16,473 bases of DNA, from assembly GCA_013812565.1 (NCBI GenBank), contig JACCTF010000693.1, forward strand, positions 1-16,473, in the 5' to 3' direction. Source of the stretch: Pyrinomonadaceae bacterium (lineage in GTDB: Bacteria > Acidobacteriota > Blastocatellia > Pyrinomonadales > Pyrinomonadaceae). The position numbers were made by a program, and so were the translations under genes. The notes below the pieces were generated by a model. The model did not search any database, had not been told where the DNA came from, and worked only from the letters and a program-made list of their open reading frames with translations. Positions 1-15,370 of the stretch are shown here, piece by piece (positions within the stretch are counted from its first letter, which is position 1; each line of letters starts with the position of its first letter).

Positions 1-2
1 GG

Positions 3-401
3 AATCAAGGATGGTATCCGCGTGGCGGCGAACGGGCCGCCTTCGGTCAGCAGAGCATCGAAGCGGGTTATACAGCCGAAGCGTGTTCGACCGCTTACGA
101 GATTACCGGAAAGACCCGCTATCTCGATTTAGCCAGGGCCGCCATCGAATGGTTCGTCGGAAGAAACCGCTTCGGAACGCGTCTCTACGATTTGGCAACG
201 GGGGCATGCACCGATGGACTAGACCAGCATGGGATGAGCATGAATCAAGGAGCCGAATCGGTGATCTGTTGCTTGCTCGGTCTGCTCGCCGTCTCGCGGC
301 AGCACGAAAAAGAACTCGAATCGGCAGCGCTCGCAACCGTTGGCGCAAGCGCCGCTGCCACCGTGGCAGCAGGCAGCATAGATGTTATAAAAGCAAAGTG
401 A
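3..401 (+). CDS. C-terminal part of a probable (alpha/alpha)6-barrel glycosyltransferase or glycosidase-associated protein (5' truncated)
   Basis: The gene enters from the left edge in the third frame and ends at TGA 399-401, so only about 132 C-terminal residues are visible. They read like the end of an alpha-toroid domain: a WYPRGGERA segment, helix pairs around AEACSTAYEITGKTRYLDLA and AAIEWFVGRNRFG, then a DGLDQHG...NQGAES segment. The NQGAES motif followed by a hydrophobic helix is typical of the barrel-type proteins that sit beside GH130 and GT4 genes. The last 30 or so residues are low-complexity Ala/Val. The stop codon lies at the edge of a heptad-repeat element, so the final residues may be repeat-derived. 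It is probably co-transcribed with the GH130 gene 103 nt downstream. The family assignment rests on context plus short motifs and is only moderate. Confidence 0.6.
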   Translation, partial: NQGWYPRGGERAAFGQQSIEAGYTAEACSTAYEITGKTRYLDLARAAIEWFVGRNRFGTRLYDLATGACTDGLDQHGMSMNQGAESVICCLLGLLAVSRQHEKELESAALATVGASAAATVAAGSIDVIKAK

Positions 402-467
402 TGTGTAACTTGATGTGATCAGTAGTGACTTACTTGTCCCTTGTCGCTTGTTACTTGCCACTTGGAA
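395..467. repeat. Heptad-repeat element A (CTTGNNN words)
   Basis: From 433 to 467 five consecutive 7-nt words all start with CTTG (first CTTGTCC, last CTTGGAA). Upstream, AAGTGATGTGTAAC at 396-409 is a partial inverted match to 452-465 (about 10 of 14). The TGA stop of the upstream gene (399-401) lies inside that left part. The element fills most of the space between the truncated gene and the GH130 gene. Confidence 0.6.
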
Positions 468-504
468 ATTTTTGAAATCATCAAGGCTTTTGGAGACTTA
501 GTGG

Positions 505-1458
505 ATGAAGAATAACCATTTCAAGGAGTTGTTTCGTCGCCATGAAAACAACCCGATCCTGACGGCCGCGCAGTGGCCGTATCGCGCCAATAGCGTTTTC
601 AATGCGGGGGCGACGCGGTTGCAAAACGGCGAGACGTTGCTTCTCGTGCGCGTCGAAGATCGACGCGGCATCTCGCATTTAACGGCGGCGAGAAGCACGG
701 ACGGCATCACCGACTGGCGCATCGATCCGCAACCGACGCTGCTGCCGGACCCGGAGAACTACCCGGAAGAAGTGTGGGGCATCGAAGACCCGCGCATCAC
801 CTGGATTGAAGAACTCAAACGTTACATGGTCGCTTACACCTCTTACTCGACCAGCGGGCCGCTCGTCTCGCTGGCGATGACAAACGACTTTCGCGAGTTC
901 GACCGCAAGGGCGTCGTAATGCCGCCGGAAGACAAGGACGCCGCACTGTTTCCCCGGCGCTTCGACGGGCGCTGGGCGCTCATCCATCGTCCCGTCTCCA
1001 ATTTCCCGGCCAGCAAAGCCAACATCTGGATCTCCTACTCAACTGATCTTAAACACTGGGGCGATTCCACCGTGATGCTCGAAGCGCGCCGCGGCGCATG
1101 GTGGGACGCGAACAAGATCGGACTATCGCCGCCGCCCATTGAAACGCCCGAAGGGTGGTTGATCATCTATCACGGCGTGCGCATCACTCCGGCCGGATGT
1201 ATCTATCGCTTGGGGCTGGCGCTCTTAGATCTTGATAACCCGGCGCAGGTCATTCAGCGCGGCGATGAATGGGTGATGGGGCCGGTCGAACCCTATGAGC
1301 GTTCGGGCGATGTGGGCGACGTGGTGTTCCCATGCGGCTGGACGCACAACACCGAGACAGGCGAACTGCGGCTCTATTACGGAGCCGCCGATTCTTCAAT
1401 CGCACTGGCAACCGGCAACACCAATGAGTTGCTTGATTGGCTAAAGACGAATAGTTAG
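505..1458 (+). CDS. Glycoside hydrolase family 130 protein (beta-mannoside phosphorylase/hydrolase type)
   Basis: This 317-residue protein has the full five-bladed propeller signature of GH130. In order: NPIL (16-19), VFNAGA (31-36), RVEDRRGISHL (49-59), GIEDPRIT (92-99), a KDAALFPRR segment (144-152), HRP (161-163), a PPPIETPEGWLIIYHG segment (209-224), and YYGAAD near 291-296. Asp95 in GIEDPR matches the conserved catalytic acid of the family. GH130 enzymes act on beta-mannosides, mostly by phosphorolysis to mannose 1-phosphate, though some members are hydrolases; the sequence alone does not decide which. The start at 505 has GGAG at 492-495, a good ribosome binding site. There is no signal peptide, so it is cytoplasmic. 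The GT4 and phosphomannose isomerase cupin downstream suggest mannose-containing glycan turnover or storage. Confidence 0.9.
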   Translation: MKNNHFKELFRRHENNPILTAAQWPYRANSVFNAGATRLQNGETLLLVRVEDRRGISHLTAARSTDGITDWRIDPQPTLLPDPENYPEEVWGIEDPRITWIEELKRYMVAYTSYSTSGPLVSLAMTNDFREFDRKGVVMPPEDKDAALFPRRFDGRWALIHRPVSNFPASKANIWISYSTDLKHWGDSTVMLEARRGAWWDANKIGLSPPPIETPEGWLIIYHGVRITPAGCIYRLGLALLDLDNPAQVIQRGDEWVMGPVEPYERSGDVGDVVFPCGWTHNTETGELRLYYGAADSSIALATGNTNELLDWLKTNS

Positions 1459-1460
1459 AG

Positions 1461-1591
1461 GTCAGATGTCAGATGCCAGATGTCAGTAAAGAGGCAGAAC
1501 TCAGGATACAGGATAAGAGCCGTGCCTTTCCTTCTGAGTCCTGAATCCTGTCTGCACTGACATCTGGCATCTGACATCCGGCATCTGTTCT
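1461..1591. repeat. Heptad-repeat element B, nested double hairpin
   Basis: The outer arms, 1465-1487 and 1556-1578, are a perfect 23-bp inverted repeat built of words like GTCAGAT and GCCAGAT. The inner arms, 1502-1514 and 1538-1550, use another word (CAGGATA type) and pair 11 of 13 plus one G-T. The right side keeps 7-nt phase from 1536 to 1591. The element starts 2 nt after the GH130 stop and ends 1 nt before the GT4 start, so it is the whole intergenic region. It could act as a terminator or attenuator. Confidence 0.75.
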
Positions 1592-1592
1592 C

Positions 1593-2642
1593 ATGCGTAT
1601 AGCAATGCTGGCACCAATTTCATGGCGTGTTCCGCCCAGGCATTACGGGCCGTGGGAGCGCGTCGTGTCGCTGCTGACCGAGGGGCTTGTTGAGCGTGGG
1701 CTTGATGTCACGCTCTTTGCCACGGCTGATTCATTAACAGGCGCGCGGCTCGTCGGGGTTTGCCCCAGGCCTTATTCGGAAGACCCGCAGATTGACGCGA
1801 AGGTCTGGGAGTGCCTTCATATTTCGGAAGTGTTCGAGCGCGCCGATGAGTTTGATCTGATCCATAATCAGTTCGATTTTCTCCCGCTCAGCTACAGCAA
1901 ATTAACAAAGACTCCGGTGCTGACGACGATCCACGGGTTTTCGTCGGAACGGATCAAGCCGGTTTACGAAAAATACAACCGGCACGTTTACTACATTTCA
2001 ATTAGCGATGCCGACCGCGACCCGCGCCTTCAGTATGTTGCCACCGTCTATCACGGCATCCCGATGGATGAGTTTACGCTGCGGATAAAGTCGGATGAGT
2101 ATCTCTTGTTCTTCGGACGCATACACCCGGACAAAGGCGCGGCTGAAGCCATCGAGGTGGCCCGGCGTGCCAATCGTCCGCTCGTCATCGCCGGAGTCAT
2201 CCAGGATCAAAGCTACTATGAAACGGAAGTTGCGCCGCATGTGGACGGGGAGCGCGTGCGGTACATCGGATCGGTTGGGCCAGACCAGCGTGATGAAGTG
2301 CTCGGGCGTGCTTTTGCGCTGCTGCACTTGATTAACTTCAGGGAGCCGTTCGGCCTTAGCATGGTTGAAGCGATGGCCTGCGGCACACCCGTTATCGCGC
2401 GAAGTTTCGGTTCGATTCCAGAGATCATCAGGGATGGCGAGAACGGATTCATTATTGACACAATAGATCAAGCCGTTCGCGCGCTTGGGCAAGTGAATCA
2501 GTTGAACCGTGCTTTCGTACGCCGGAGCATTGCCGAACGGTTCAGCCGCGAGCGAATGGTTGACGAATACATACAAGTTTATGAGGAGGTGCTAAAACAG
2601 CATGCCGGAAACAAACAAACAAGAAACGTCGCCGCTTTATGA
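1593..2642 (+). CDS. GT4-family glycosyltransferase
   Basis: A 349-residue GT-B fold glycosyltransferase of family 4. The N-terminal Rossmann domain opens with MRIAMLAPISWRVPP and has the glycine-type acceptor loop (HYGPWERVV, 17-25). The C-terminal nucleotide-sugar domain begins near YLLFFGRIHPDKG (170-182). The retaining-GT E-x7-E motif is E251 and E259 in EPFGLSMVEAMACGTPVIA, followed by GSIPEII (273-279) and GENGFI. It has no signal peptide. It should transfer a sugar from a nucleotide-diphosphate donor; donor and acceptor cannot be read from sequence, though GH130 and PMI neighbours suggest mannose chemistry. No Shine-Dalgarno precedes the ATG; instead the leader is the right arm of a large inverted repeat. 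The 3' end overlaps the cupin gene by 41 nt in another frame. Confidence 0.9.
   Translation: MRIAMLAPISWRVPPRHYGPWERVVSLLTEGLVERGLDVTLFATADSLTGARLVGVCPRPYSEDPQIDAKVWECLHISEVFERADEFDLIHNQFDFLPLSYSKLTKTPVLTTIHGFSSERIKPVYEKYNRHVYYISISDADRDPRLQYVATVYHGIPMDEFTLRIKSDEYLLFFGRIHPDKGAAEAIEVARRANRPLVIAGVIQDQSYYETEVAPHVDGERVRYIGSVGPDQRDEVLGRAFALLHLINFREPFGLSMVEAMACGTPVIARSFGSIPEIIRDGENGFIIDTIDQAVRALGQVNQLNRAFVRRSIAERFSRERMVDEYIQVYEEVLKQHAGNKQTRNVAAL
2584..2590 (+). promoter_or_regulatory. Ribosome binding site AGGAGGT inside the GT4 coding region
   Basis: A near-perfect Shine-Dalgarno lies 11 nt upstream of the ATG at 2602, within the end of the GT4 gene. It fixes the cupin start despite the 41-nt overlap. 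Confidence 0.8.
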
Positions 2643-2970
2643 CGAGCGCCCGTGGGGTTCGTTCACTGTGCTCGATGAAGGACAAGGCTACAAAGTTAAG
2701 CGCATCGAAGTCCTGCCCGGCAAGCGCCTCAGTTACCAGAAACACGCTCACCGCGCTGAACACTGGATGATGGTTGCAGGCATTGGCAAAATCACCCTTG
2801 AGGGCCGCGAAGTCATCGTGCCGACAGGTGAAACAATCGACATCCCACTCGGCGCAGCGCACCGGATCGAAAACCCCGGCGACGAGAAACTTATCTTCAT
2901 CGAGATCCAGCGCGGCGACTACCTCGGCGAAGATGACATCGTGCGTATGCAGGACGACTTCGGCCGCTAA
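2602..2970 (+). CDS. Stand-alone cupin of the type II mannose-6-phosphate isomerase family
   Basis: A 122-residue single cupin matching the C-terminal isomerase half of ManC/AlgA-type bifunctional enzymes, here without the guanylyltransferase domain. Visible signatures are RPWGSF (16-21), KRIEVLPGKRLSYQKHAHRA (33-52), EHWMMVAG (53-60), a metal-site His at 87 (AAHRIENPG), EIQRGDYLGEDDIVR (101-115) and the terminal DDFGR. Likely metal ligands are Gln46, His48, Glu53 and His87. The family interconverts fructose 6-phosphate and mannose 6-phosphate, which would supply mannose units for the neighbouring glycosyltransferase; a regulatory or other sugar-phosphate role is also possible for a lone cupin. 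It is translationally coupled to the GT4 gene by overlap. Confidence 0.88.
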   Translation: MPETNKQETSPLYDERPWGSFTVLDEGQGYKVKRIEVLPGKRLSYQKHAHRAEHWMMVAGIGKITLEGREVIVPTGETIDIPLGAAHRIENPGDEKLIFIEIQRGDYLGEDDIVRMQDDFGR

Positions 2971-2975
2971 AAACA

Positions 2976-3036
2976 GGTTCAAGGTTCAAGGTCAGATGCG
3001 CCTTCCGGCCTTGAACTTTGAACCTTGAACCTTGAA
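2976..3036. repeat. Heptad-repeat element C (GGTTCAA words), likely bidirectional terminator
   Basis: The left arm is two GGTTCAA words plus GG (2976-2991). The right arm is four in-phase words of CCTTGAA type (3009-3036). Positions 2976-2991 pair with 3009-3024 over 16 bp with one G-T, leaving a 17-nt loop; an alternative 15-bp pairing uses 3023-3037. It sits between two convergent genes and contains the minus-strand gene's stop. Confidence 0.75.
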
Positions 3037-4376
3037 CTTTTCGAGGCGAGCATGATGCGAAGGTCGCGCACGTTCGTGCCGGATGGGCCGGTCATCACGG
3101 CGTCGCCGAGATTTGCGAAGAAGGTATAGGCGTCGCTTGCATCAAGGAAATTCTGTGCGTCGAGGTTGAGTGTATGTGCCCGATGAAGCGTGGTGCTGTC
3201 GGAGAGCGCGCCGGCTGCCGGGCTGTTGCCGTCAACTCCGTCGGTGCCCGCGCTGAGGGCGACTATCTGTAGAGTTTCGAAGTCGGATCGATGCGCTTGT
3301 CCGGTCATTTCAAAGGCGCAACGCAGCGCAGTCTCAACATTACGCCCGCCCAAGCCAGGGCCTCGTACCGGACACGCAAACTCGCCGCCGGAGATCGAAC
3401 AAACAACTTGCCCGCGCCCCGCGCGCACGTACAAGTCGAGGAGTCGGGAGACGAGCATCCGGCAACCTTCAACGATGGGCTGTTCGACTATGTCGCGCTC
3501 TATCTCGACGGTGAAGCCGCGCGCATGTGCTGCCGCGGCAGCCTGCTTCATCGCGCGCTCGTTGTCGAGCAGAACGTAATGTCGGCGTCGTGAACGAACG
3601 TTATGTTCGCTCGCGCGGGTGTCCGGCTGGTTGATGGTTTGAAAGATTGACTGTGGTAGACGGGCTGCAAGTTTATAACGCTCGATCACCGAAGCTGCAT
3701 CGACTGCCGCAGCGGGCGGAACAAGCGTTAAGCCCGAAGCAACATTTGCTTCATCGCCTTGATTGGTGTCTGAAATAATCAGAGTGACTTGGTGCGCGTG
3801 TGGAGCATGATCACTGAGCTTGCCGCCTTTGACTGCTGAGAAATGGCGACGCACCGCGTTAATCTCAGCGATGGTCGCACCGCAGGACGTAAGCACGCGG
3901 TTCGCTTCGCGCAACTCGGCGAGCGTCGTCTGCGCAGAGCGCGGCCACTCAAGCATGGCTGAGCCGCCGCCGGAGATGAGGAAGATGACCAGCGCGGATG
4001 CATCGGCTTGTCGGAGAAGATCGAACGAAGCTTGTGCTGCCGCAAGACTCGCTTCGTTCGGCGTCGGGTGGCCGCCCGCAAAAACGCGCCAGCGATTGGA
4101 AATGTGAAGCTCCGTCGGGACGGTTGAAACAACTCCGCCTGCGAGTTCGTCGCCGAGCACAGAGTCGAGCGCCACGGCCATCGAACCAGCAGCTTTGCCA
4201 ACAGCAATCGCATAGATTGCCGAGCAAGCGCCCGTGTCAAACTCTTGATCAACGACTGTGAGCCGCGAACCCGCAAGCCGCACCGCCTCGCGTACGGCTC
4301 GCCCGGCGTCTACGCTCTGGAGCGCTTCAGTGAAGATTTCGCGCGCGGCCGAACGAAGATCCAACCCGTCATCCAT
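2979..4376 (-). CDS. Glycerate 2-kinase, MOFRL/DUF4147 family
   Basis: A 465-residue protein of the GckA/TtuD class, which phosphorylates D-glycerate to 2-phosphoglycerate using ATP. The N-terminal DUF4147 domain shows AIAVGKAAGSMA (56-67, with the conserved Lys61), GGHPTPNEAS (101-110), LISGGGSAM (133-141) and EINAVRRHFSAVKGGKL (171-187). The MOFRL domain shows SISGGEF (327-333), GPGLGGRN (339-346), LSAGTDGVDG (374-383) and TGPSGTNVRDL (429-439). The family SDVPGDD motif is altered here to SDTNQGD. An AGGTGG ribosome site precedes the ATG. Residues from about 445 to 465 follow the natural end (DLRIMLA) and are encoded by the adjacent heptad repeat, so the tail is probably non-functional. It would feed glycerate into glycolysis or serine and glyoxylate metabolism. 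Confidence 0.9.
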   Translation of the reverse strand: MDDGLDLRSAAREIFTEALQSVDAGRAVREAVRLAGSRLTVVDQEFDTGACSAIYAIAVGKAAGSMAVALDSVLGDELAGGVVSTVPTELHISNRWRVFAGGHPTPNEASLAAAQASFDLLRQADASALVIFLISGGGSAMLEWPRSAQTTLAELREANRVLTSCGATIAEINAVRRHFSAVKGGKLSDHAPHAHQVTLIISDTNQGDEANVASGLTLVPPAAAVDAASVIERYKLAARLPQSIFQTINQPDTRASEHNVRSRRRHYVLLDNERAMKQAAAAAHARGFTVEIERDIVEQPIVEGCRMLVSRLLDLYVRAGRGQVVCSISGGEFACPVRGPGLGGRNVETALRCAFEMTGQAHRSDFETLQIVALSAGTDGVDGNSPAAGALSDSTTLHRAHTLNLDAQNFLDASDAYTFFANLGDAVMTGPSGTNVRDLRIMLASKSSRFKVQSSRPEGASDLEP

Positions 4377-4403
4377 TGCTGCTCAGTCCACCTTATTACT
4401 CAA

Positions 4404-4577
4404 AAGTGACAAGTGACGAGTAAACAGTGACAAGACAGAAGCGATGAGTGATGACTGCTTGTGCTTGAAACTCCGCGCTCTTTTTGACTTTGCTTCCCTG
4501 TCGTGAGATTAGCTGATACCGCATTCGTAATTCGTACTTACCTTTCTTGTCACTCGTCACTGTTTACCTGTCACTTC
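4404..4577. repeat. Heptad-repeat element D (AAGTGAC words) with opposed arms
   Basis: Positions 4404-4452 hold seven in-phase words related to AAGTGAC, and 4523-4577 hold about eight in-phase words ending in complementary GTCACTT-type words. Positions 4411-4431 pair with 4556-4576 (19 Watson-Crick plus one G-T of 21). The word order is partly permuted between the arms. The element fills the 208 nt between the ComEA-like gene and the glycerate kinase gene. Confidence 0.7.
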
Positions 4578-4584
4578 TGTATTA

Positions 4585-4947
4585 TCAGTCTACCTTAATA
4601 AAGGAGCGCAGTTCGTTGAAGCGTCGCTCGCTGATGCCGCGTACCATCATCAGGTGTTCCACACGCCGAAAGCGGCCATAGCGTTTGCGGTGCTCAATGA
4701 TGCGTTGTGCGATCTGGCTGCCCACGCCCGGCAGTCTTTCAAGATTGCCTGCGGATGCCGTGTTGATAGAGACGCACGGCTCGCTCGCTGTTTCGCTTTG
4801 AAGCCGACACGGCACAATTCCATTTCCTTTGAAAGACTCGGCACGGCGCGACGCTGTAACGCAAGACAAGCCTTCCGCAGCAATAGTGCTGCAAAAAAGC
4901 ACAATGCAAACCGAGCGCTTGCTTCCCGGAGGAAGAATGCCTGCCAT
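4585..4947 (-). CDS. ComEA-like helix-hairpin-helix protein
   Basis: The C-terminal 60 residues form a (HhH)2 domain of ComEA/competence type: SINTAS, then LERLPGVGSQIAQRIIEHR and YGRFRRVEHLMMVRGISERR. In this family the domain binds DNA non-specifically. The N-terminus from the ATG at 4947 (MAGILPPGSKRSVCIV) carries a short hydrophobic stretch ending AAEGLSC, which could be a signal anchor or a weak lipobox, so the HhH domain may be outside the membrane. A TTG at 5004 would add 19 residues; neither start has a clear Shine-Dalgarno. The middle region is not recognisable. A role in DNA uptake is plausible but unproven, and no other competence gene is visible nearby. Confidence 0.75.
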   Translation of the reverse strand: MAGILPPGSKRSVCIVLFCSTIAAEGLSCVTASRRAESFKGNGIVPCRLQSETASEPCVSINTASAGNLERLPGVGSQIAQRIIEHRKRYGRFRRVEHLMMVRGISERRFNELRSFIKVD

Positions 4948-5053
4948 CTGAGTGTAAACTGGTGACGCCGAACGAGTTAGAACATCTGCCACGAGCGTGT
5001 GCAAAATGCTAGAAGTCTAAACAATTCAGGAACTTGTAACCTCAAAGAGGGGG

Positions 5054-5088
5054 TTTTCCACAGACTTTTCCACAGCCTCTGTGGAAAA
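5054..5088. promoter_or_regulatory. Hairpin with three DnaA-box-like TTTTCCACA copies
   Basis: TTTTCCACAG occurs at 5054-5063 and 5066-5075, and inverted (CTGTGGAAAA) at 5079-5088. The last two form a perfect 10-bp stem with a 3-nt CCT loop. The site lies 58 nt past the ftsK stop and may serve as its terminator. The nonamer differs by one base from the classical DnaA box TTATCCACA. Confidence 0.45.
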
Positions 5089-5158
5089 CGATGAACGCGG
5101 AACAATGAAGTGATACATGCCATCTTCTTATTCATCCTTCCGCCTTCATCCTTCATCC
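5089..5158. repeat. Heptad-repeat element E (TTCATCC words), ten words in one phase
   Basis: The whole 70 nt divides into ten heptads. Words 1-3 are CGATGAA, CGCGGAA and CAATGAA; words 7-10 are TTCATCC three times with TTCCGCC second. Arms 5089-5109 and 5131-5151 pair 17 of 21 positions around a 21-nt loop, with C-C mismatches at 5089/5151, 5096/5144 and 5103/5137, one per heptad. The ftsK stop codon is at 5146-5148, inside word 9. Confidence 0.75.
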
Positions 5159-7851
5159 GTCTCAAGGTCGTCCCAATGGGCGAGGGTCTCATAGGCGCGG
5201 CCGAGCACTGAGCGGGGGCGTGCGCCATCGGTCGGACCGATGAAGCCTTCGCGCTCCATCGCATCGAGGATCGCGGCGGCGCGTCCGTACCCGATGCGCA
5301 AACGTCTCTGCAACACGGAGGTCGAAGCGCGTTTCATTTCGACGCAGATGCGTAAGGCCGCTTCAAAAAGCTCATCGCGTTCACTGCTCGTCGACCCACC
5401 GTCGTTTGCTTCTTCTTCTGATTGCGTAATCGTTTCATCATAGACCGGCTGCCCTTGCGCTTTTACGTGCGCGACGATTTTGTTGACCTCTGTTTCTTCG
5501 AGGTAGGCTCCGTGCACACGGATGAGACGCGATGTACCCGGCGGCAGAAAGAGCATGTCGCCGCGACCGAGAAGTTGTTCCGAGCCGTTGGCATCGAGAA
5601 TGGTGCGCGAGTCAACCTTGGAGGAGACGCGAAATGAGATGCGCGAAGGGAAGTTGGCTTTGATAAGTCCGGTGATCACATCCACGCTCGGGCGCTGTGT
5701 GGCGAGGATAAGGTGAATGCCGACGGCGCGTGCCATCTGCGCGAGCCGCGTAATCGATTCTTCGACTTCGTGGCCGGAGACCATCATCAGGTCGGCGAGT
5801 TCGTCGATGATGATGACGAGATAAGGCAGAGGCTTCCACGGCTGCCCCGCTTCGTCGAAGTCACGAGCACTGTTGCGGCGCGTTGCCTCCTGGTTGAATC
5901 CGTCGATGTTGCGCACGCCCCACTTCGCGAGGTTGCGGTAGCGATCCTCCATCTCCCGCACCGCCCATTTAAGCGCGCTCGCCGCACGCTTCGGATCAGT
6001 GATGATCGGCGTCGCCAGGTGCGGAACGTCCGCATAGAGACCAAGTTCCAAACGCTTCGGGTCGATCATGATGAACTTTACTTCATCGGGCTTGGCTTTG
6101 TAGAGGATCGAGACCACCAGCGAGTTGAGACACACACTCTTGCCGGTCCCCGTCGCGCCGGCGATCAACAGGTGCGGCATCTTAACGAGGTCTGCCACGT
6201 AGTTTAGGCCATCGATGGTTTTGCCGAGCGCGAGCGTGAGCTTCGACTGTGACTCTCGAAACTGTCTTGAGTCAATCACCTCACGCAAGAAGATCGTTTC
6301 GCGATGGAGGTTCGGCACCTCGATGCCGACGTGCGGCTTGCCGGGCATACGCTCGATGCGGATCGATTCGGCTTTGAGCGCGAGGCATAGATCATCGACG
6401 AGACCCGTGACGCGCGAGTATTTGACGCCGGGATCGGGTTTGAATTCGTATGTGGTGACGACCGGCCCAGGGCAGATGTGCTTGATCTGGCCGGTGACGT
6501 TGAACTCCCGGCACTTCTCTGCGAGGTGCGTGGCGAGGCCGAGCAGTTCATCATCGTCTTGCTCGCGGCGCAGCGGTGCGGCGTGAAGAAACTCAAGGCT
6601 CGGCAGCTTGAAATCCGTGGGCACGGTGCGCTCCGCAGAACGCATACCGGCGGTCGCTTCCGCGCGACGGTCGCTGCGGCCGAAGCCTTCGCTCGCTGAC
6701 GCCTTGTCAGCATTGGTGCGAACGACGGAAGCATCTCGCAGCATCGCTTCAACCGCTTCAACGTCCGCTGCTTGTTCATCATCTGCTGCTGTCGGTGGTG
6801 ATGGTGAAGGCGCGACCGCCGTGCGTTTTGCCGGAGCGGATAATTGCTTGGTGAGTGAGCCATTTTGATTTGCAGCGACTTCCGGGTCAACCTCCTGGTC
6901 AACTTCGTTATTAGCTTCGCTGTGCGGTGGGGCGAAATCTGTTGAACGAATCGTCGCAGGCGCTTTGTAAACCGATACGATTGGCGGGACTGCCTGTGCG
7001 GATCCGCCAGCGGCAGCGGCTGATCGTTTAATCGCGATTGATGAAGCGATGTCAGGCGCGTTCGGCGGTTGCTCTGACGGAGCGGTTTCGCGCATAAACT
7101 CGGCGACGCGCTCGGCTCCAGTCTGGTCGCGCCGTTTCTTCTCCGCTTCCTGAATCTTAACTTGTTCGCCGCGCTTCGCTTGGCGCACTTCGCCGTGCTG
7201 CTGCGCCATCTCACGCCGCTTCGTCCACCATGTTTGAACTTTTTGGGGAAGGTCATAAAAGAAGGTGAGACGATGCGCGAACTCTGGAGCAAGACGCTCG
7301 TAAGCGTGGGCGAACGAGAAGTTGGTGGCAAGCAGCAAGCTTGTTGCCACCAGCGCAAGCAGCAAGACACTGGCGCCAACCGTGTGGAAGACGCCGGCTA
7401 ATACCTGGGCGATGACTTCTCCGATAAGGCCGCCCGCTTGGAAACTGGCATCATGCAGAGGGCCAATCCTTGAAAGAGCCAGGAGTGCCGCCGCCGCCAG
7501 CACAAGGACGACGAGGCCGGCAACGCGCGGGAGCGGGGCATGAATACGCTTGATGCGGAAGCGCCGCCAGGCGGTAACTATCAGCAGCACCGGCACGAGA
7601 GCCGCCGCGAGGCCGAAGGTTTGAAACAGCGCGGCGGCGATGTTAGCTCCAATTGTGCCGACGAGATTGTGTATCTCATCCTGCCCGGCGGAGTTCCATG
7701 AGGGATCGTTCGGATTGTATGAGACAAGCGCGAGCGCGACCAGCAAGCTCGCGGCGAAAAGCGCTATCGCCACGATCTCGTTACGCCTGGTGTTATGCGG
7801 CGGCGTACCCGCTGCCGTTCGCGCTCGCGCACCCTCATGTGTGGTAGCCAT
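5146..7851 (-). CDS. ftsK: DNA translocase FtsK/SpoIIIE
   Basis: A 901-residue FtsK. The N-terminal membrane domain has about four helices (roughly 25-45, 65-95, 108-128, 140-175). A charged, Pro/Ala-rich linker spans about 210-430. The motor domain follows with Walker A GATGTGKS (565-572), FIMIDPKRLEL (593-603), Walker B VIIIDELADL (679-688) and LATQRPSVDVITG (716-728). The gamma winged-helix domain (about 827-890, RLRIGYGRAAAILDAME) would read the polar DNA motifs. Anchored at the septum, it pumps chromosome ends apart and activates XerCD dimer resolution. The length is normal. It starts 56 nt after prfB, so an lnt-prfB-ftsK transcript is likely. The last residues come from the heptad element at its 3' end. 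Confidence 0.96.
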   Translation of the reverse strand: MATTHEGARARTAAGTPPHNTRRNEIVAIALFAASLLVALALVSYNPNDPSWNSAGQDEIHNLVGTIGANIAAALFQTFGLAAALVPVLLIVTAWRRFRIKRIHAPLPRVAGLVVLVLAAAALLALSRIGPLHDASFQAGGLIGEVIAQVLAGVFHTVGASVLLLALVATSLLLATNFSFAHAYERLAPEFAHRLTFFYDLPQKVQTWWTKRREMAQQHGEVRQAKRGEQVKIQEAEKKRRDQTGAERVAEFMRETAPSEQPPNAPDIASSIAIKRSAAAAGGSAQAVPPIVSVYKAPATIRSTDFAPPHSEANNEVDQEVDPEVAANQNGSLTKQLSAPAKRTAVAPSPSPPTAADDEQAADVEAVEAMLRDASVVRTNADKASASEGFGRSDRRAEATAGMRSAERTVPTDFKLPSLEFLHAAPLRREQDDDELLGLATHLAEKCREFNVTGQIKHICPGPVVTTYEFKPDPGVKYSRVTGLVDDLCLALKAESIRIERMPGKPHVGIEVPNLHRETIFLREVIDSRQFRESQSKLTLALGKTIDGLNYVADLVKMPHLLIAGATGTGKSVCLNSLVVSILYKAKPDEVKFIMIDPKRLELGLYADVPHLATPIITDPKRAASALKWAVREMEDRYRNLAKWGVRNIDGFNQEATRRNSARDFDEAGQPWKPLPYLVIIIDELADLMMVSGHEVEESITRLAQMARAVGIHLILATQRPSVDVITGLIKANFPSRISFRVSSKVDSRTILDANGSEQLLGRGDMLFLPPGTSRLIRVHGAYLEETEVNKIVAHVKAQGQPVYDETITQSEEEANDGGSTSSERDELFEAALRICVEMKRASTSVLQRRLRIGYGRAAAILDAMEREGFIGPTDGARPRSVLGRAYETLAHWDDLETDEG

Positions 7852-7907
7852 AAGTTGCTTTCGCTACTCCAGTGCTTTCACGCTCATTTAAATCAGTGTC
7901 CCGGCTC

Positions 7908-9018
7908 TCATGCGGCGCGGCGCGCGAGCAAGTGAGCTTTGATGAAGTCGTCGATGTCGCCGTCGAGCACGCGGTCAACATCGCCGCGTTCAAGTTTGGT
8001 ACGCGCGTCTTTGACGAGACGATAGGGCGCAAGCACGTAGTTGCGTATCTGTGAGCCAAAGGAGATGTCGGCTTTGTTGGCTTCAAGCTCGGCGGTCTCG
8101 GCGCGCCGCTTCTCAAGTTCAAGTTCGTAGAGCCGTGCACGCAGCACCTGCATCGCGACGGCGCGGTTCTGGTGTTGCGAACGTTGGTTCTGACATGACA
8201 CAACAATATTCGTTGGAATGTGTGTGATGCGCACAGCGGAATCCGTTGTGTTGATGTGCTGTCCGCCCGCGCCGGTTGCGCGGTAGGTGTCAACGCGCAG
8301 ATCTTTGTCGTTGATTTCAACCTCGATGGTTTCATCGACCTCGGGATAAACGAAGAGCGAGGCGAAGGAGGTGTGACGACGCGCCGCTTGATCAAAGGGC
8401 GAGATGCGAACCAATCGATGCACGCCCGCTTCGGCGGAAAGCAAGCCATAAGCGTACTCGCCTTCAACACGGAAGGTAACTCCCTTTACTCCCGCTTCTT
8501 CACCCGGCTGGTAATCCAGTATCTCGGACTTGAAACTCCGCCGCTCAGCCCACTTCAAGTACATGCGCAGGAGCATCTCGGCCCAGTCCTGTGATTCTGT
8601 GCCGCCCGCGCCGGGATGAATGGTGCAGATCGCGTTGCGCCCGTCGTTCTCGCCGGAGAGGAGCATTTCGATCTCGGCTTGACTCACCTCTTGTTCGAGT
8701 CGTTCGACCAGCGCTTCAAGCTCGCGCAAGGAATCTGTATCTTGTTCGGCGAACTCCAGGAGCACGTTCATGTCATCACGCGATGATTCAAATTGCGCTT
8801 GACGGTTGACCGTCCGCTCTAGTTGACTGCGATGTTGCAAAAGCTTTTGCGCCGCTTCCTGGTCGTTCCAGAAATCCTGTGCCGAAGCTTGCTCCTCAAT
8901 GCGCGTCAGTTCCGCGCGCTTGACTGCAACATCAAAGAAACCTCCCGAGTTGTTCGATTCGTGTGCTCAACTCTTCAACCCTCGTGCGTGCGTCGTGTAT
9001 CGTTAAAGCCTCAATCAT
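7908..9018 (-). CDS. prfB: Peptide chain release factor 2, with programmed +1 frameshift
   Basis: Translation starts at ATG 9018 (GAGG about 10 nt before it) and runs 28 codons to an in-frame TGA at 8932-8934. The site reads GGGAGG, TTT, CTT, TGA, which has the E. coli RF2 layout of an internal Shine-Dalgarno, a CTT slip codon and TGA. Slipping +1 continues as DVAVKRAELTRIEEQ and gives a 369-residue product, the normal length. SPF (206-208) decodes UGA/UAA stops and GGQ (251-253) in TGAGGQHIN releases the peptide; both fall one residue from their E. coli positions. The frameshift makes RF2 synthesis autoregulated by RF2 level. An annotation of only the long frame would lose the first 59 residues. 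Confidence 0.96.
8930..8946 (-). promoter_or_regulatory. prfB: prfB programmed +1 frameshift site
   Basis: On the minus strand the site is GGGAGG then TTT CTT TGA T. The internal Shine-Dalgarno is separated from CTT by 3 nt, as in E. coli. The codon-29 TGA lies at 8934-8932. Confidence 0.95.
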
Positions 9019-9032
9019 CTCTTTCTTGCCTC

Positions 9033-9088
9033 GATAGTGTGATAGTGATGAGTTATGAGTAAGAACAAGTTTTTAACTCATCACTTAT
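9033..9088. repeat. Heptad-repeat element F between lnt and prfB
   Basis: Eight in-phase heptads on the minus strand, including ACTCATA, ACTCATC, ACTATCA and CACTATC. ATGAGTT near 9075-9081 matches inverted copies near 9047-9060, giving an 11-bp stem (AGTGATGAGTT with its complement). The lnt stop codon (9081-9083) lies in the stem, and the prfB ribosome site follows directly, so the element forms the prfB leader. Confidence 0.65.
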
Positions 9089-10718
9089 TACGGCGTGTGG
9101 TGAGCGAAGCCGCCCATATCAAAAAGCTGATCACGGCGCAGGCTGCCGGAAATACCTCACCGTAATTTGTATAGAATGTTTTGCTGTTTGAGGCGCGACT
9201 CACCGTCCAGGTGCGCGCCTCAGGAGTAAAGCTTGCGGTCGTGTCGCTGACTTCACCGCGCGGAGAGACAAAGGCGCTGATGCCTGTGTTGGTCACGCGG
9301 AGCACGGGCCGGGCCGTTTCGACTGCGCGAAAGACTGCGTTTGCCAGATGCTGTCGCATCACTGCGGTGCGTCCCAAGTAACCGTCATTGGAGATGTTAA
9401 TCAGAACGTCGGCTCCCTGCGCGGCGTAGTTTCTGGTGAGAGAGGGGAACGCTGAATCGTAGCAGATAAAGACGCCGGCGCGTGCCGCGTTAAGTGAATC
9501 ACCAAGTGGCATCAGGGGTAGTCGATCACCCGGAACAAATCCCCCGACGATGCCGCTCACTGCGTTAGCGCCCGGTATCCAATGAGGCAACGGTACAAAC
9601 TCGCCGAACGGCAGCAAATGAATCTTATCATAACGCGCGACCGGCAGACCTCGTTCATTTATCATCATCGCAGAGTTGTGCGTGCCGCCATCGGCAGACG
9701 GCTCAAGCGAGTTGAACAGCACCGATGTTTGGTTCCTTTGTGCGAAGCGGGTTAGCAACTCGCGAAACTCCGTATCGTGCGCGTAAGAAAAGTTCATCGG
9801 CGATTCTGACCAGATGACAACTCGCGCCAGTTGCTTCTGCGTGGCTTGTTTCGCCTCCCACTTCCAAAGTTCACCTTCGCTCATCATCAAATGACGGTTG
9901 ATCAGCATCGCTGTCTCCGCCGCCGACCGATTAAACTTCATCGGCACATTCGGCTGCACTGCAACCACCACTGCGATTGGTTCGCGCGTCGCAGGCAGGT
10001 CGCTCACCATTAGGCTCGAAAGAATCACGAGCGCGACGGCTCCAACCATGAGCGCGACAATCCTCACTGCGCGTTTCGTTCTCTCTAGTATCCAATAAGC
10101 GAAGGCCGCGTTAACCGCGACGATCAGAAAGCCAATTAGATAAACGCCGCCCCAGCGTGCCGCTTGAATCAACGACGGAACATAAGCTTGCGAGTAACCG
10201 ATGGCGTTCCATAGCTGACCCGTGAGCGCGAAACGCGCCCATTCAAACGACGCCCACAGGAAGGGAGCTGCGACAAGCCCGCGTGTGCCGAAGCGAAGGC
10301 AGACAAACGCGAGCGCCGCGCAGCAGATGGCCGGGAAGAATCCAAGCACCAGCGCCGCAGGCACAAGCAGCGGGTACGCGATCCACGCCGGAATTCCTCC
10401 GTAATGAATCATCGAGTGCGTTAGCCAGTAGCACGAGATGTAGAAGAAGAAGGTGCCGGTGGCCCACCCCAGCACGAATGCGCGCCCCATGTGCGGCTTT
10501 CTTACGAGGGCGATAAAAAGCGGCGTGAGTCCCACCCAGGCGAGCGCCCACCAATCGAAATTGGGAAACGAGAAGATCAGCAGCCAAGCTGACAGCGCGG
10601 CCAGCGCCCACTCCATGAGCGTCGGCGCATCTACGGCCCGCGCAAGCAGTAGTCGTGCGCGCTTCCAACGGTTCTCTCTTTCTCTGCTTATGTTATTAAG
10701 AGCAACTGTGTCTTGCAC
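9081..10718 (-). CDS. lnt: Apolipoprotein N-acyltransferase
   Basis: A 545-residue membrane enzyme that adds the third acyl chain to diacylglyceryl lipoproteins. About seven hydrophobic segments occupy residues 33-240, followed by the periplasmic nitrilase domain and a last helix at 523-540. The nitrilase triad is visible: Glu305 in VIWSESPMNF, Lys365 in YDKIHLLPFGEFVP (with Glu373) and Cys419 in GVFICYDSAFP. NISNDGYLGRT and RAVETARPVLRVTNTGIS also fit. The residue after CY is Asp420, where E. coli Lnt has Glu. The start used is a GTG at 10718 without a clear Shine-Dalgarno; about 30 polar residues precede the first helix, so a later start is possible. It lies 62 nt upstream of prfB. Confidence 0.95.
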   Translation of the reverse strand: MQDTVALNNISRERENRWKRARLLLARAVDAPTLMEWALAALSAWLLIFSFPNFDWWALAWVGLTPLFIALVRKPHMGRAFVLGWATGTFFFYISCYWLTHSMIHYGGIPAWIAYPLLVPAALVLGFFPAICCAALAFVCLRFGTRGLVAAPFLWASFEWARFALTGQLWNAIGYSQAYVPSLIQAARWGGVYLIGFLIVAVNAAFAYWILERTKRAVRIVALMVGAVALVILSSLMVSDLPATREPIAVVVAVQPNVPMKFNRSAAETAMLINRHLMMSEGELWKWEAKQATQKQLARVVIWSESPMNFSYAHDTEFRELLTRFAQRNQTSVLFNSLEPSADGGTHNSAMMINERGLPVARYDKIHLLPFGEFVPLPHWIPGANAVSGIVGGFVPGDRLPLMPLGDSLNAARAGVFICYDSAFPSLTRNYAAQGADVLINISNDGYLGRTAVMRQHLANAVFRAVETARPVLRVTNTGISAFVSPRGEVSDTTASFTPEARTWTVSRASNSKTFYTNYGEVFPAACAVISFLIWAASLTTRRNK

Positions 10719-11003
10719 GGATGTAAGTTTAACAGAGACCTTTGACTTGCGTCATCGCCCTGTCCAACTCGGCAATCAACTCAACCTAACTTATGACAGC
10801 CGCCGCAAAAGCGGTTCGCCCCGTTGTGCAAAATCGTATATCGAGTGGCGTGCACAAACAGAAAACGTCACCCTTAGAGTGACAAATTTTGTCGAAGACA
10901 AATTGTTCACAGTCCTCTTTGTTCGCTGGGCGAATACTCGCACAAAGCAGAGGTTGAATAACAGACTTCAGTAAAGCAAAAATTATCAACCGTAAACGCA
11001 GGA

Positions 11004-11028
11004 GAACCCGGCGGATTAGGCCGGGTTC
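11004..11028. terminator. 9-bp GC-rich hairpin, possible terminator
   Basis: GAACCCGGC (11004-11012) pairs perfectly with GCCGGGTTC (11020-11028) around a 7-nt loop. There is no immediate T-run on either strand, so a factor-independent terminator is only one option. Confidence 0.5.
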
Positions 11029-11180
11029 ACGTATAAGGTAGGAAGATAGGCTGGGATGCTCGGTAGGAGACTGGCGCAGCGGCAGGCCACGCTCAGAGGA
11101 GTGATGGCGGCGGGGTCACAGGCTTTGGTGAGCTTTGTGCTTGCCGGTGATAAGTAGTGCACATCATGTGCCACGGGAGA

Positions 11181-11222
11181 GGGGCAGTGGGCAGTAAGAA
11201 GAAAGCAGGGGGCAGTAACAGA
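11181..11222. repeat. Heptad-repeat element G (NNNNCAG words)
   Basis: Six consecutive heptads, four of which end in GCAG (GGGGCAG first and fifth, TGGGCAG second). There is no opposed arm, so this is a tandem-only version of the family. Confidence 0.6.
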
Positions 11223-11244
11223 CAATGTGCTTTTCGCTAGGTCA

Positions 11245-11321
11245 CGTCAGGCTTTTCTGCCGCCTAAGCGGGGGCGACCCATGACCCCCACTCAACTGTC
11301 GCTTCGGCGACGCGCCTGACG
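11245..11321. other. 77-nt multi-stem element (candidate structured RNA or palindromic repeat)
   Basis: The outer stem is CGTCAGGC (11245-11252) with GCCTGACG (11314-11321), 8 bp perfect. Inside are CCGC/GCGG (11260-11271), GGGGG/CCCCC (11270-11274 and 11285-11289, 10-nt loop) and GTCGC-TTCG-GCGAC (11298-11311). The first two share bases, so one of them must open. It lies 76 nt past the nfeD-like stop. I do not recognise the family. Confidence 0.5.
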
Positions 11322-11396
11322 ATTGATCATTGCCGACCGTATCCTCAAGGGCACGGCTAAATTCAACTGCCGCGCACGCGGCTCGGATAGTTGCAC

Positions 11397-11738
11397 TCAG
11401 GAACCATTATTTGTCTTCACATCTTTCTGCCTTCTGTCCACGGCCCATTCCTCATCTACTTCCAGTAGATGCGCGCTCGTTCCCACGATGCGAACGTTGT
11501 TGTGGCCGCGTGCGATGTTCGCTCCGCTGCGCGAGCGTGCGCGCCATAGTTCGCCGCGCACAAGCACCGCGCCCTCCGGCTTAAGTGGAGTCTCGACAGA
11601 AGCAAGGCTGCCGATAAGGGCAACTTCTACTTGCGACGCTTTTCGCCGTCTCAACACCACGGCCAGCGTAGCAAGCGCGATGAGCAATCCACCCGTCGCT
11701 ACCGACACTGCGGCGAAGATGAACGAGGAAGTCGGCAT
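11397..11738 (-). CDS. Short NfeD-like membrane protein with C-terminal OB domain
   Basis: A 113-residue protein with one transmembrane helix (about 8-30) followed by a basic stop-transfer RRRK and an OB-fold of the NfeD C-terminal type: LIGSLASVETPLKPEGAV (41-58), GELWRARS (62-69), IARGHNNVRIVG (75-86) and LLEV (91-94). NfeD proteins usually pair with SPFH/stomatin proteins in membrane organisation or proteolysis; no such partner is visible here. The last 15 or so residues, past EVDEE, look repeat-derived. The start ATG at 11738 has no clear Shine-Dalgarno, but an in-frame stop shortly upstream leaves no earlier usual start. It is downstream of the TPR gene beyond a strong hairpin, so it is probably transcribed separately. 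Confidence 0.75.
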   Translation of the reverse strand: MPTSSFIFAAVSVATGGLLIALATLAVVLRRRKASQVEVALIGSLASVETPLKPEGAVLVRGELWRARSRSGANIARGHNNVRIVGTSAHLLEVDEEWAVDRRQKDVKTNNGS

Positions 11739-11788
11739 TCTGATAATGAGATTTGATTAAACAAGAGTTCGCCGCCAGTAAAGTGGTA

Positions 11789-11822
11789 AGCGGGACGGTT
11801 GCAACCCGGCAACCGTCCCGCT
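11789..11822. terminator. Perfect 14-bp hairpin downstream of the TPR gene
   Basis: Arms 11789-11802 (AGCGGGACGGTTGC) and 11809-11822 are perfectly complementary around a 6-nt loop. It lies about 130 nt past the TPR stop and 51 nt before the NfeD-like start on the minus strand. It lacks a T-run on the minus strand but is very stable; it may be a terminator or a dispersed palindrome. Confidence 0.6.
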
Positions 11823-11899
11823 CGAGAGCGGCTATTAAGATGAGCTGACATGAATCGTGGATTGATCACCACGCGTGAGAAAGAGAAGCGAGCAATGGT

Positions 11900-11941
11900 C
11901 TGAACCGCCTCCTGACTAACCTCTGACCTCCAACCTTTTTC
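11900..11941. repeat. Heptad-repeat element H
   Basis: Six in-phase heptads; GACTAAC, CTCTGAC and CTCCAAC (11914-11934) are the closest relatives. There is no opposed arm. It ends about 10 nt from the TPR gene stop at 11951. Confidence 0.5.
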
Positions 11942-11950
11942 TCATCAAAG

Positions 11951-13717
11951 CTACCTCGCGCCGGTCTCGACTTGGCGAAGCAGCGCCACGGCTTCTTGGT
12001 TGTTGGTATCTATCTGCATCGCACTGCGTGCATACGTCAAGGCCATCCCACGGTCGCCGCGTTCAAGGAAAATGCGCCCGAGAAGAATGTGGGCGTCGAT
12101 CAATTTGGGATCCCAGAAGATGGCCGTTCGCAGCACACTGACCGCAGCATCTTGATCGCCGCGCCGCAGGTTAATGCGACCGATTGTTAAATGAGCTTCG
12201 GCATTCATTGGCTCGACTGTGAGCGTGCGGCGTAATTCTTGCAGCGCTTCATCGTCGCGCCCAGCCTGGTATAACTCGCGCGCTTTGGTGAGCAACTCCT
12301 GCGCGGTCGTGCCTGGAGTTTCCTCCTTCTCCTTCCGTATCTTGTTGACGAGCGCCTCGTAGTAGCCGGATCGGTTGAAATTCATTAGCAGGCGCGGCGA
12401 AATTTCATTCACCGTTTGTGACTTCTGCCACTCGGTTTGCCACGTTGCGTAAGCGGGTAGATAAAGCCGCGCTTGATTGTCGGCGGCAACCGCAGCTTCG
12501 GCGCGGTTCGTTTTCTCCAGCGCCTTAGCAAACAGAAAATAGGCTTGCCCGTCTTGCGGAGTGGCTTCAATCACCGGACTTAGTTGCTCCGCCGCTTCCC
12601 CATACTTGCCGGAAAGAAAAAGCGCGTGGGCATAGTTGAACCGCGCGAGCGAATCTTCAGGGGTAGACTCCACGGCGCGCTCAAGAAATGTTAACGCTTG
12701 TTTAAGCAGCCGCGCGCGCTCCTCAGGCTTCTTCTCTTCCCGCGCGGCTTGGACGGAGATTGCGCCGACATTGTTGTAAACACCCGTCAGCGGCACATCC
12801 GCGGCGAGCGGCAACAGCGTACCGAGGGCGCTTACCAAATCTTTCATCTGCCAGTAAGCAACACCTCCGTAGAAAGCCGCTTCCGGGTAGTGTCGATCAC
12901 GGTTCTGAAGCTTCGAAAAATACTCCGCCGCGCGCTTCCAATCGTACTGTCTAAAATAGAGGTGACCGAGTTCGTAGGCGGCCTGTGAATAGGTCGCTCC
13001 GGCGTTGGCGCGCGCATACTCGCGCAAGGCGTTTTGCAAATAAGCGACGCGCTTTTCTCCGTCCTCGGTCATTGCACCTTTGACATAACTCTCGAAGGCG
13101 CGCGGCGGAATCTTGGTTGTGCGCTCGACAAACTGCATCAGCGAGAAGGGAAGCGCTTTATCGCGCTGGTAAAGTATCTGGTAGGCGAGACGCCCCTGCA
13201 TGTTCTGCAATGTTTGAAGTGGACCACCGAAGTTATACTGAATGGGGGACCATCGTCCGTCGGCCGCCAGTTCGCCCGTTAATCTTCCCTCGCCAACTTT
13301 GATGACGCGGGCCGTACCACTGACCTCTGCCGGAGCCTGCTCGCCTTGTGCCGGGGTGATGCTGTAAGTGCCGAGTACGACAAGAGTCGCTTTAGCCTCA
13401 CGCGCGATCTTGATGGCTGTGGCACGCGACGGTAAGGTTGTGACCGGAAGGCGCAAACGCTGGTAGGTCAGTTCACGCTCATCGCTTGAGACAACAATTA
13501 CGCCCGGCACATTCAAAAGCTCAGAGAGCGCGTCGGCGAAGCTCTCACCGATCCAGTTGTACTCTCTGGAAGTTGAGGTGTTCTCAAAGGGCAGCGCAAT
13601 GACAACATCGTTTGCGCCGGCGGTTTGTGCGGAAGAGCCTGCGGAAATAAAGAGGATCGAGGATAGCAAGGTAACTGCTATCAGAATTGAGCGAACAAAA
13701 AGCAATTGGTGTTTCAT
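11951..13717 (-). CDS. Exported TPR-repeat protein with N-terminal TolB/FlgO-like domain
   Basis: From the ATG at 13717 the protein is 588 residues and begins with a classical signal peptide (MKHQLLFVRS, a hydrophobic core, then SSAQTAG). The next part, VVIALPFENTSTSREYNWIG, through SERELTYQRL-like segments to ATLVVLGTYS, resembles the alpha/beta domain of TolB-N/FlgO-type proteins. At least six TPR-like helix pairs follow, for example QAAYELGHLYFRQYDWKRAA, SLARFNYAHALFLSGKYGEA and AEAHLTIGRINLRRGDQDAA. It is probably a periplasmic or outer-membrane scaffold of unknown target. An upstream ATG at 13750 would add 11 residues (MLTKAQERLHI), but it abuts the tRNA terminator hairpin and spoils the signal peptide start. 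No clear Shine-Dalgarno supports either start. Confidence 0.85.
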   Translation of the reverse strand: MKHQLLFVRSILIAVTLLSSILFISAGSSAQTAGANDVVIALPFENTSTSREYNWIGESFADALSELLNVPGVIVVSSDERELTYQRLRLPVTTLPSRATAIKIAREAKATLVVLGTYSITPAQGEQAPAEVSGTARVIKVGEGRLTGELAADGRWSPIQYNFGGPLQTLQNMQGRLAYQILYQRDKALPFSLMQFVERTTKIPPRAFESYVKGAMTEDGEKRVAYLQNALREYARANAGATYSQAAYELGHLYFRQYDWKRAAEYFSKLQNRDRHYPEAAFYGGVAYWQMKDLVSALGTLLPLAADVPLTGVYNNVGAISVQAAREEKKPEERARLLKQALTFLERAVESTPEDSLARFNYAHALFLSGKYGEAAEQLSPVIEATPQDGQAYFLFAKALEKTNRAEAAVAADNQARLYLPAYATWQTEWQKSQTVNEISPRLLMNFNRSGYYEALVNKIRKEKEETPGTTAQELLTKARELYQAGRDDEALQELRRTLTVEPMNAEAHLTIGRINLRRGDQDAAVSVLRTAIFWDPKLIDAHILLGRIFLERGDRGMALTYARSAMQIDTNNQEAVALLRQVETGAR

Positions 13718-13750
13718 AATATGTAAACGCTCTTGGGCCTTGGTTAACAT

Positions 13751-13798
13751 GAAAAGGTCATCAGCGCTCTATTACCGGACCGCGCTGATGACCTTTTC
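13751..13798 (-). terminator. Terminator of tRNA-Glu, 17-bp stem
   Basis: GAAAAGGTCATCAGCGC (13751-13767) is perfectly complementary to 13782-13798, with a 14-nt loop. On the minus strand the stem ends CCTTTTC, a usual A/T-edged intrinsic terminator. It lies 37 nt past the tRNA 3' end and directly abuts the first possible TPR start. Confidence 0.8.
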
Positions 13799-13834
13799 GA
13801 ACTCAAAGCACGAAGCGACAAAGCGCTGGAATCT

Positions 13835-13910
13835 TGGTATCCCGTACGGGATTCGAACCCGTGTTTCAGCCTTGAAAGGGCCGTGTCCTAGGCCTCTGGA
13901 CGAACGGGAC
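13835..13910 (-). tRNA. tRNA-Glu (anticodon TTC)
   Basis: 76 nt with CCA encoded (13835-13837). The acceptor stem GTCCCGT pairs with ACGGGAT (first pair G-T). The T-arm contains GGTTCGAATCC. The anticodon loop CTTTCAA places TTC at 13874-13876. All four arms are intact. Confidence 0.97.
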
Positions 13911-13935
13911 AGGATGACTTCACCGAAGCGAACTC

Positions 13936-13964
13936 AAACTAGCTCACATACGAGGATGTGTCAA
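13936..13964 (-). promoter_or_regulatory. Promoter of tRNA-Glu
   Basis: On the minus strand a consensus -35 TTGACA (13964-13959), a 17-nt spacer and a weak -10 TAGTTT (13941-13936) predict a start near 13928, about 18 nt before the tRNA. Confidence 0.65.
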
Positions 13965-14207: not shown

Positions 14208-14213
14208 TACAAT
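14208..14213 (+). promoter_or_regulatory. Putative -10 box placed for a leaderless transcript
   Basis: TACAAT ends 8 nt before the ATG at 14221, so transcription would begin at or next to the start codon. No Shine-Dalgarno precedes the ATG. The -35 at proper distance (around 14185-14190) is poor. Confidence 0.45.
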
Positions 14214-14220
14214 ATAAATT

Positions 14221-15342: not shown

Positions 15343-15370
15343 GTTGTGCAAGTGGCAGAGATCGGTTCCG

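Follow-up and report, generated by a model that had tools for sequence, protein, structure and literature searches.

Heptanucleotide hairpins between the genes of a Pyrinomonadaceae bacterium as probable gene-less relatives of mobile elements that carry a 23S rRNA-intervening sequence protein gene

This study concerns intergenic hairpins built of 7-nt words in a 16,473-nt stretch of DNA from a Pyrinomonadaceae bacterium (GCA_013812565.1, contig JACCTF010000693.1, positions 1–16,473, forward strand); the whole stretch is here called the window. We found that these hairpins are probably gene-less relatives, similar to miniature inverted-repeat transposable elements (MITEs), of mobile elements that have inverted arrays of one re-writable word as their ends and carry a small gene for an intervening sequence protein (IVP; PF05635/TIGR02436, '23S rRNA-intervening sequence protein'). 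The observations that carry this conclusion were the association of IVP genes with arrays, homology of dispersed copies that ended near the arm ends, the presence of the same arms on IVP elements and on gene-less hairpins within a genome, duplication of a 5-bp target at each of two plasmid sites, and purifying selection in three pairs of IVP genes. Heptanucleotide repeats of cyanobacteria and other bacteria are in this way linked to proteins of TIGR02436 ('four helix bundle protein'); the repeats acquire a likely origin, the proteins a testable role, and the result would be a mobile element with ends of no fixed sequence.

Relatives of the genome of the window (a 5.3-Mb assembly, here the own genome) were collected through a glycosyltransferase search, the named matches of which included Pyrinomonas and Pyrinomonadaceae, and 45 of them plus the own genome gave 46 sampled genomes. 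The samples were not random; some were centred on previously found genes, and the window itself was included. Genes of one genome (G029) were called with a home-made program, which probably under-called. In the relatives, some arms were separated by approximately 350–400 bp in which a small gene was located, and PF05635 (23S_rRNA_IVP) matches were found within such pairs. The association was measured in 30 genomes, each represented by its best IVP locus, by scoring period-7 arrays within 250 bp on either side; 2300 random control windows were scored at period 7 only. Arrays were present on both sides at 24 of the 30 IVP loci compared with 3 of the 2300 random windows, and on at least one side at 27 compared with 186.

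Among 30 IVP loci of other groups, whose names were read from record titles, two-sided arrays were present at 9 with period 7 and at 4 with period 8; these loci were from Chloroflexota, Planctomycetota, Desulfobacterota, and one Eisenbacteria locus with arms that were not complementary. Five of these 30 loci fell below the family cut-off, had no same-period arrays on both sides (0 of 5), and were excluded from a set of 78 IVP loci scored at period 7 or 8, which contained the 30 best-per-genome loci and three orthologous pairs (L311/L320, L313/L318, and L263/L265). Arrays flanked the gene on both sides at 58 of the 78 and on at least one side at 70. Arms had a median of 4.6 units, and the purine-richer arm was the 5′ arm on the coding strand in 40 of the 58 (p 0.005). 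For four heptad-rich genomes, 15 of 21 IVP loci were scored (2 of the 15 were already counted in other sets), and all 15 had two-sided arrays. In the own genome, three genes exceeded the IVP family cut-off; one of them is frame-broken, and all were flanked by arrays. In 12 cyanobacterial plasmid IVP genes, taken from 44 records and all within the top 16, arrays with many different words occurred on both sides at 10 and on at least one side at all 12; these annotated copies were located between protein genes. As a control, genes for RAYT (REP-associated tyrosine transposase, Y1_Tnp) had two-sided arrays at 1 of 20. The gene-bearing form was approximately 420–570 bp long in the copies measured. 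Some IVP elements (L368, L372, and L374) were located in runs of CRISPR genes, between cas6 and cas4 or between cas10 and a cmr3-family gene, and one IVP of the own genome (L301) adjoined a cas1-like gene, as judged by eye from its translation.

Gene-bearing elements and gene-less hairpins were connected within single genomes. The arm of one IVP element of the own genome (L302) matched the hairpin family that includes window positions 5086–5158, with 35 of 35 positions identical in one sister copy (L222), 32 of 32 in another, and 22 of 23 in the window; this family therefore resembles MITEs in having the same ends as a gene-bearing element from its own genome. The arms of L301 matched a hairpin of approximately 80 bp (L124), and in a relative with two IVP genes (G015) the arms at these genes matched two abundant hairpin families. 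Over 18 genomes, 50 of 201 hairpin segments contained a word that also occurs in IVP arms of the same genome (G015 contributed 23 of these 50); when genomes were permuted the mean was 13.0 and the maximum 43, and none of 5000 permutations reached the observed value. A shared vocabulary was also found, in that 27 of 69 arm words recurred compared with a shuffled mean of 6.3 and maximum of 15. On Nostoc plasmids, a truncated IVP element (L381) and a gene-less hairpin (L385) occupied sites at which relatives carry the whole IVP element. The seven genomes without an IVP gene had period-7 densities of 30, 5.8, 5, 0, 0, 0, and 0 segments per 100 kb, compared with a median of 16.1 in the 39 others.

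Searches of the window against the own genome revealed relatives for five of its eight period-7 loci (1461, 2976, 4404, 5089, and 9033), and several of these elements shared their loop with those relatives. For 1454–1591, two relatives (L237 and L238) agreed with it in the outer arms and over much of the interior; for 2975–3040, five own-genome copies were aligned; for 4404–4577, much of the loop was common to two relatives (L236 and L239); and 9033–9088 had matches at C1030 and C591. The 5086–5158 family, with 12 further copies aligned, numbered 13 copies in total, which had arms and loop ends in common and seemingly unrelated flanks. These five loci thus have the other traits of MITEs: they are short, gene-less, and multicopy, with inverted ends. 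The original prediction held that each locus has a different word. This is true inside the window but misleading, because the existence of relatives in the own genome, several with the same loop, means that each locus of the window shows only one member of one among several families; in the sample of the own genome there were 13 words in 19 period-7 segments.

Alignment of the 13-copy family (AAGGATG) by eye showed nearly every heptad of the arms to be of either GAAGGAT or GAACGAT type, so that 7 copies were G/G and 4 mostly C/C, whereas 2 had mixed arms. One of the mixed copies is that of the window, with a left arm mostly of GAACGAT type and a right arm of GAAGGAT type; it and L220 are mosaics, one arm from each word subfamily, as if recombined in the loop. 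Hairpins nested within the loops of other palindromes were also noted by eye (window 1499–1551, L223, and L228). They give the impression that insertion was directed to the tips of hairpins, which recalls intervening sequences (IVSs) in rRNA helices.

Indications of mobility came from copies at different sites. Two IVP copies on different contigs of the same genome (L309 and L313) were 83.5% identical over 534 bp, and the limits of the match were within approximately 20 nt of the arm ends. Two elements at different sites on different plasmids (L376 and L377) had a main match of 419 bp. Relative to three empty plasmids that were 97–98% identical, L376 was a 428-bp insertion bordered on each side by GTAAT; relative to more distant plasmids, approximately 90% identical, L377 was a 418-bp insertion bordered on each side by TTCTA. 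Cyanobacterial plasmids of rep_cluster_1671 include the first of these sites in occupied as well as empty form. The ratio of nonsynonymous to synonymous substitution (dN/dS) was 0.072, 0.071, and 0.043 in three IVP pairs, one copy of which was truncated, and dS was saturated in three more pairs. Judged from these ratios, IVP is under purifying selection.

The IVP proteins matched TIGR02436 'four helix bundle protein'. The cut-offs of both PF05635 and TIGR02436 were exceeded by two from the own genome (L301 and L302) and by two others (L309 and L263). Two of these four also had weak, below-cut-off matches to Avd of diversity-generating retroelements, a likeness also described in the available text of PMC10053308. 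The solved relatives 2gsc and 2rld have five chains each, and the Xanthomonas campestris S23 protein (2gsc, XCC0516) is described as a pentameric ring (PMC4990558). A ring with one repeat per subunit would suit arms of 4–5 units. Words were within one change of each other in 22 of 56 pairs of loci with 60–70% protein identity and in 4 of 7 above 70%, compared with 0.4–2.6% of pairs below 50%. Because the Mantel correlation of word with protein was only −0.12 (3 of 2000), this correspondence may reflect shared descent rather than coevolution.

In the gene-carrying form, a PF05635/TIGR02436 four-helix-bundle (IVP/S23) gene lies between an array of a 7-nt word and an inverted array in which the word is identical or similar. 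We propose that a trans-acting recombinase would insert the element between genes. The IVP ring, a pentamer in the solved relative, may bind the repeated word, at approximately 4–5 units per arm, either as DNA or as an RNA stem, and the stem may allow RNase III to cut the insert from transcripts as it does for 23S rRNA intervening sequences. The word would be rewritten in concert along an arm, so that lineages, and many loci too, come to have a word of their own. Much more tentatively, and with the balance somewhat against it, these elements may define a class of transposable elements recognized by repetition instead of fixed sequence, in which the IVP ring binds 4–5 copies of the 7-nt word of its own ends, the arrays are re-copied so that the word of a whole end changes at once, and most bacterial heptanucleotide repeats (cyanobacterial STRRs, or short tandemly repeated repetitive sequences, and those of Xanthomonas, Geobacter, and Beggiatoa) are its ends or gene-less remnants.

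The extent of the period-7 signal and the turnover of words were examined in the 46 samples, which contained 276 period-7 segments with 123 distinct words. Density was highest in G015, at 71 per 100 kb, and the mean over periods 5, 6, 8, 10, 11, and 13 was 0–10 per 100 kb. The excess anticipated for the genome and its relatives was seen in many of the 45 relatives and was absent from 15 genomes, each of which gave zero segments in 9–20 kb. In 80 kb of G015 there were 57 segments at period 7 and 0–7 at periods 5, 6, and 8–13. Many consisted of an array and its reverse complement, separated by a loop. Words were reused within and between genomes and grouped in families; those of GTCAGTT and CAGTTTT type were frequent. 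Multicopy elements of G015 comprised two hairpin families and one period-8 family; at L162 14147–14268 of that genome is a period-8 palindromic repeat based on CTTTGCGC, found at more than 25 further places in G015. The suggestion that words change in concert in both arms at orthologous loci was borne out at one site: G009 15940 has a GTCCAAA-type hairpin and G033 49335 a CAAGTTT-type hairpin, both arms having changed together and the loops differing as well. These genomes are approximately 85% identical where alignable, and their remaining shared sites had an identical or similar word.

Several results weigh against the interpretation as relatives of IVP elements. Hairpin words matched none of the examined IVP arms in 9 of the 18 genomes, for which only some IVPs were examined, as in G002 (0 of 14) and G023 (0 of 15). 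IVP number was not well correlated with hairpin density (rho 0.25, p 0.10, n 46). No PF05635/TIGR02436 gene was detected in G001 (88% complete), which had six period-7 segments in 20 kb; its period-7 hairpins (L198) were of typical form. Eight of the 78 IVP loci had no array on either side, some of the 58 two-sided loci had left and right words that were not complementary, and none of 4 Myxococcota IVP loci had two-sided 7- or 8-nt arrays. The 5-bp target duplications come from two sites only, both of them cyanobacterial plasmid sites with IVP-bearing copies, and a third plasmid site (L369 compared with L383 and L384) provided no clean empty site. IVP is without a known catalytic site and could be cargo, and no recombinase was identified in a search that went no further than RAYT.

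Three other explanations were considered. The first is that local mutation alone, by slippage in 7-nt steps together with the strand switching at hairpins suggested in the original prediction, builds the elements in place and without mobility; a related earlier idea is that 7 nt is the stretch contacted by DNA polymerase (PMC4679880). The change of nearly every heptad of an arm together in the 13-copy family and the different words at the same G009/G033 site agree with local mutation, but copies at unrelated sites have common loops, homology ends near the arms, targets are duplicated, the elements are linked to IVP, and period-8 families exist as well. We therefore consider it improbable as the whole explanation. 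Shared loops and empty sites already tell against it, but local mutation persists as the word-rewriting step within the mobile-element model. Slippage set by a polymerase footprint as the only cause is disfavoured by the shared loops, period-8 families, and empty sites. A copying process that rewrites nearly every heptad of an arm is still needed, and the templated copying of the original prediction may belong there. That prediction was wrong or incomplete in that the elements are dispersed and tied to IVP, and in that IVP-bearing copies have duplicated targets at two plasmid loci.

Slightly less probable again is a role in gene control, for which the arrays would be retained as sites recognized by a global regulator that binds DNA or RNA, as has been proposed for Geobacter (PMC2700814) and for TAACTGA repeats (PMC4679880). 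The position of elements next to stop and start codons and the pairing of arrays on opposite strands would fit such sites; the many words, the turnover at an orthologous site, the unrelated flanks of copies, and the IVP genes within arms would not. We attach the same slight probability to REP (repetitive extragenic palindromic)- or REPIN-like elements mobilized by RAYT transposases. RAYT-family matches were present in 49 of 60 genomes, and hairpin density tracked RAYT number weakly (rho 0.32, p 0.028, n 46), yet better than it tracked IVP number. However, the scarcity of two-sided arrays at RAYT genes (the 1 in 20 above) disfavours RAYT as the mobilizer, and G008 and G013, with 9 and 13 matches, had no period-7 segment in 20-kb samples. 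REPINs resemble the elements described here in being miniature mobile DNA of bacteria (PMC3116915) and differ in that RAYT genes are mostly without heptad arrays.

The closest known system is the IVS of 23S rRNA with an S23/IVP gene (PMC4990558, PMC11270868). In it the IVP gene is located within a long stem of terminal inverted repeats, and an IVS of 428 nt has been described (PMC4990558); the plasmid insertions reported here measure 428 bp (L376) and 418 bp (L377). According to the same source, IVSs are thought by some to be mobile by a mechanism that is unknown. The gene-bearing form encodes IVP/S23 as IVSs do, and the window hairpins have no gene. Stem-forming terminal inverted repeats are present at 58 of 78 loci, with words that do not always match closely. 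A seat in a 23S rRNA helix was not found; plasmid copies lie between protein genes such as cas6 and cas4. The elements described here differ further in having arrays of 7- or 8-nt words as ends, abundant gene-less copies, and 5-bp target duplications at two loci.

STRRs are tandem heptanucleotide repeats of cyanobacteria. They were set apart in the original prediction as reusing a few words, a trait absent from the 46 genomes and the own genome; that contrast does not hold well, because 10 of the 12 cyanobacterial IVP genes have the same architecture with many words. STRR and TAACTGA repeats are likewise intergenic tandem heptamers, and TCAGTTA-type units occur here too; the available text of PMC4679880, which describes heptamer arrays in cyanobacteria and Beggiatoaceae, links them neither to IVP genes nor to inverted pairs of locus-specific words. 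GGGNATC heptamers of Xanthomonas and Nostoc also form arrays, which in two genomes of Xanthomonas include 70 and 75 inverted pairs, but consist of a single word and are treated as G-quadruplex sequences (PMC4692102). The Geobacter metallireducens sites are multicopy classes of 3–5 tandem 7- to 9-nt units in opposite-strand pairs at variable distance; they are read as binding sites of a global regulator, and no IVP gene is named in the accessible portion of that report (PMC2700814). Searches of the openly accessible literature aimed at a link found no paper that joins IVP genes to heptad arrays.

In the window, pooled intergenic DNA had an identity of 0.353 at lag 7 compared with 0.24–0.28 at other lags, except for the harmonics 14 and 21. 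Each of the eight predicted period-7 loci was scored by lag-7 identity against 2000 dinucleotide shuffles and by folding (fold z). Five exceeded all 2000 shuffles and three were marginal; most adjoined stop or start codons. The predicted hairpins at five loci, with a weak one at the first, were upheld, as was the view that simple slippage does not account for what is a real set of palindromic intergenic elements with a 7-nt period. The CTTGNNN array at 433–467 had a lag-7 identity of 0.75 (0/2000) and a weak hairpin (z −1.2). The element at 1454–1591 is a nested double hairpin (lag 7 0.55 for 1461–1591, 0/2000; z −9.5) that occupies the whole gap from a stop codon (1458) to a start codon (1593); its outer GTCAGAT arms are at 1454–1486 and 1557–1587, and inner CAGGATA/CAGGATT arms, delimited by eye, are at approximately 1499–1515 and 1534–1551. 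The hairpin with GGTTCAA arms at 2975–3040, between convergent gene ends, had values of 0.67 (2976–3036), 0/2000, and z −7.0; that with AAGTGAC arms and a loop of approximately 100 nt at 4404–4577 had 0.46, 0/2000, and −3.5; and that with two word subfamilies at 5086–5158 had 0.54 (5089–5158), 0/2000, and −5.1. The three marginal loci were a short ACTCATA hairpin at 9033–9088 (80/2000; z −2.8), a GGGCAGT array without a hairpin at 11181–11222 (26/2000), and a weak CCTCTGA array, also without a hairpin, at 11900–11941 (55/2000; z +0.35).

A search of the window against Rfam matched a tRNA only, with no rRNA match. A second dispersed repeat at 10992–11184 abuts the 11181 array and is 98% identical to C631:3097–3289; its 10990–11119 portion is 78% identical to C60. 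On the minus strand at approximately 8840–8990, a frame that by eye resembles peptide release factor 2 in translation begins late, as if a programmed frameshift were located upstream.

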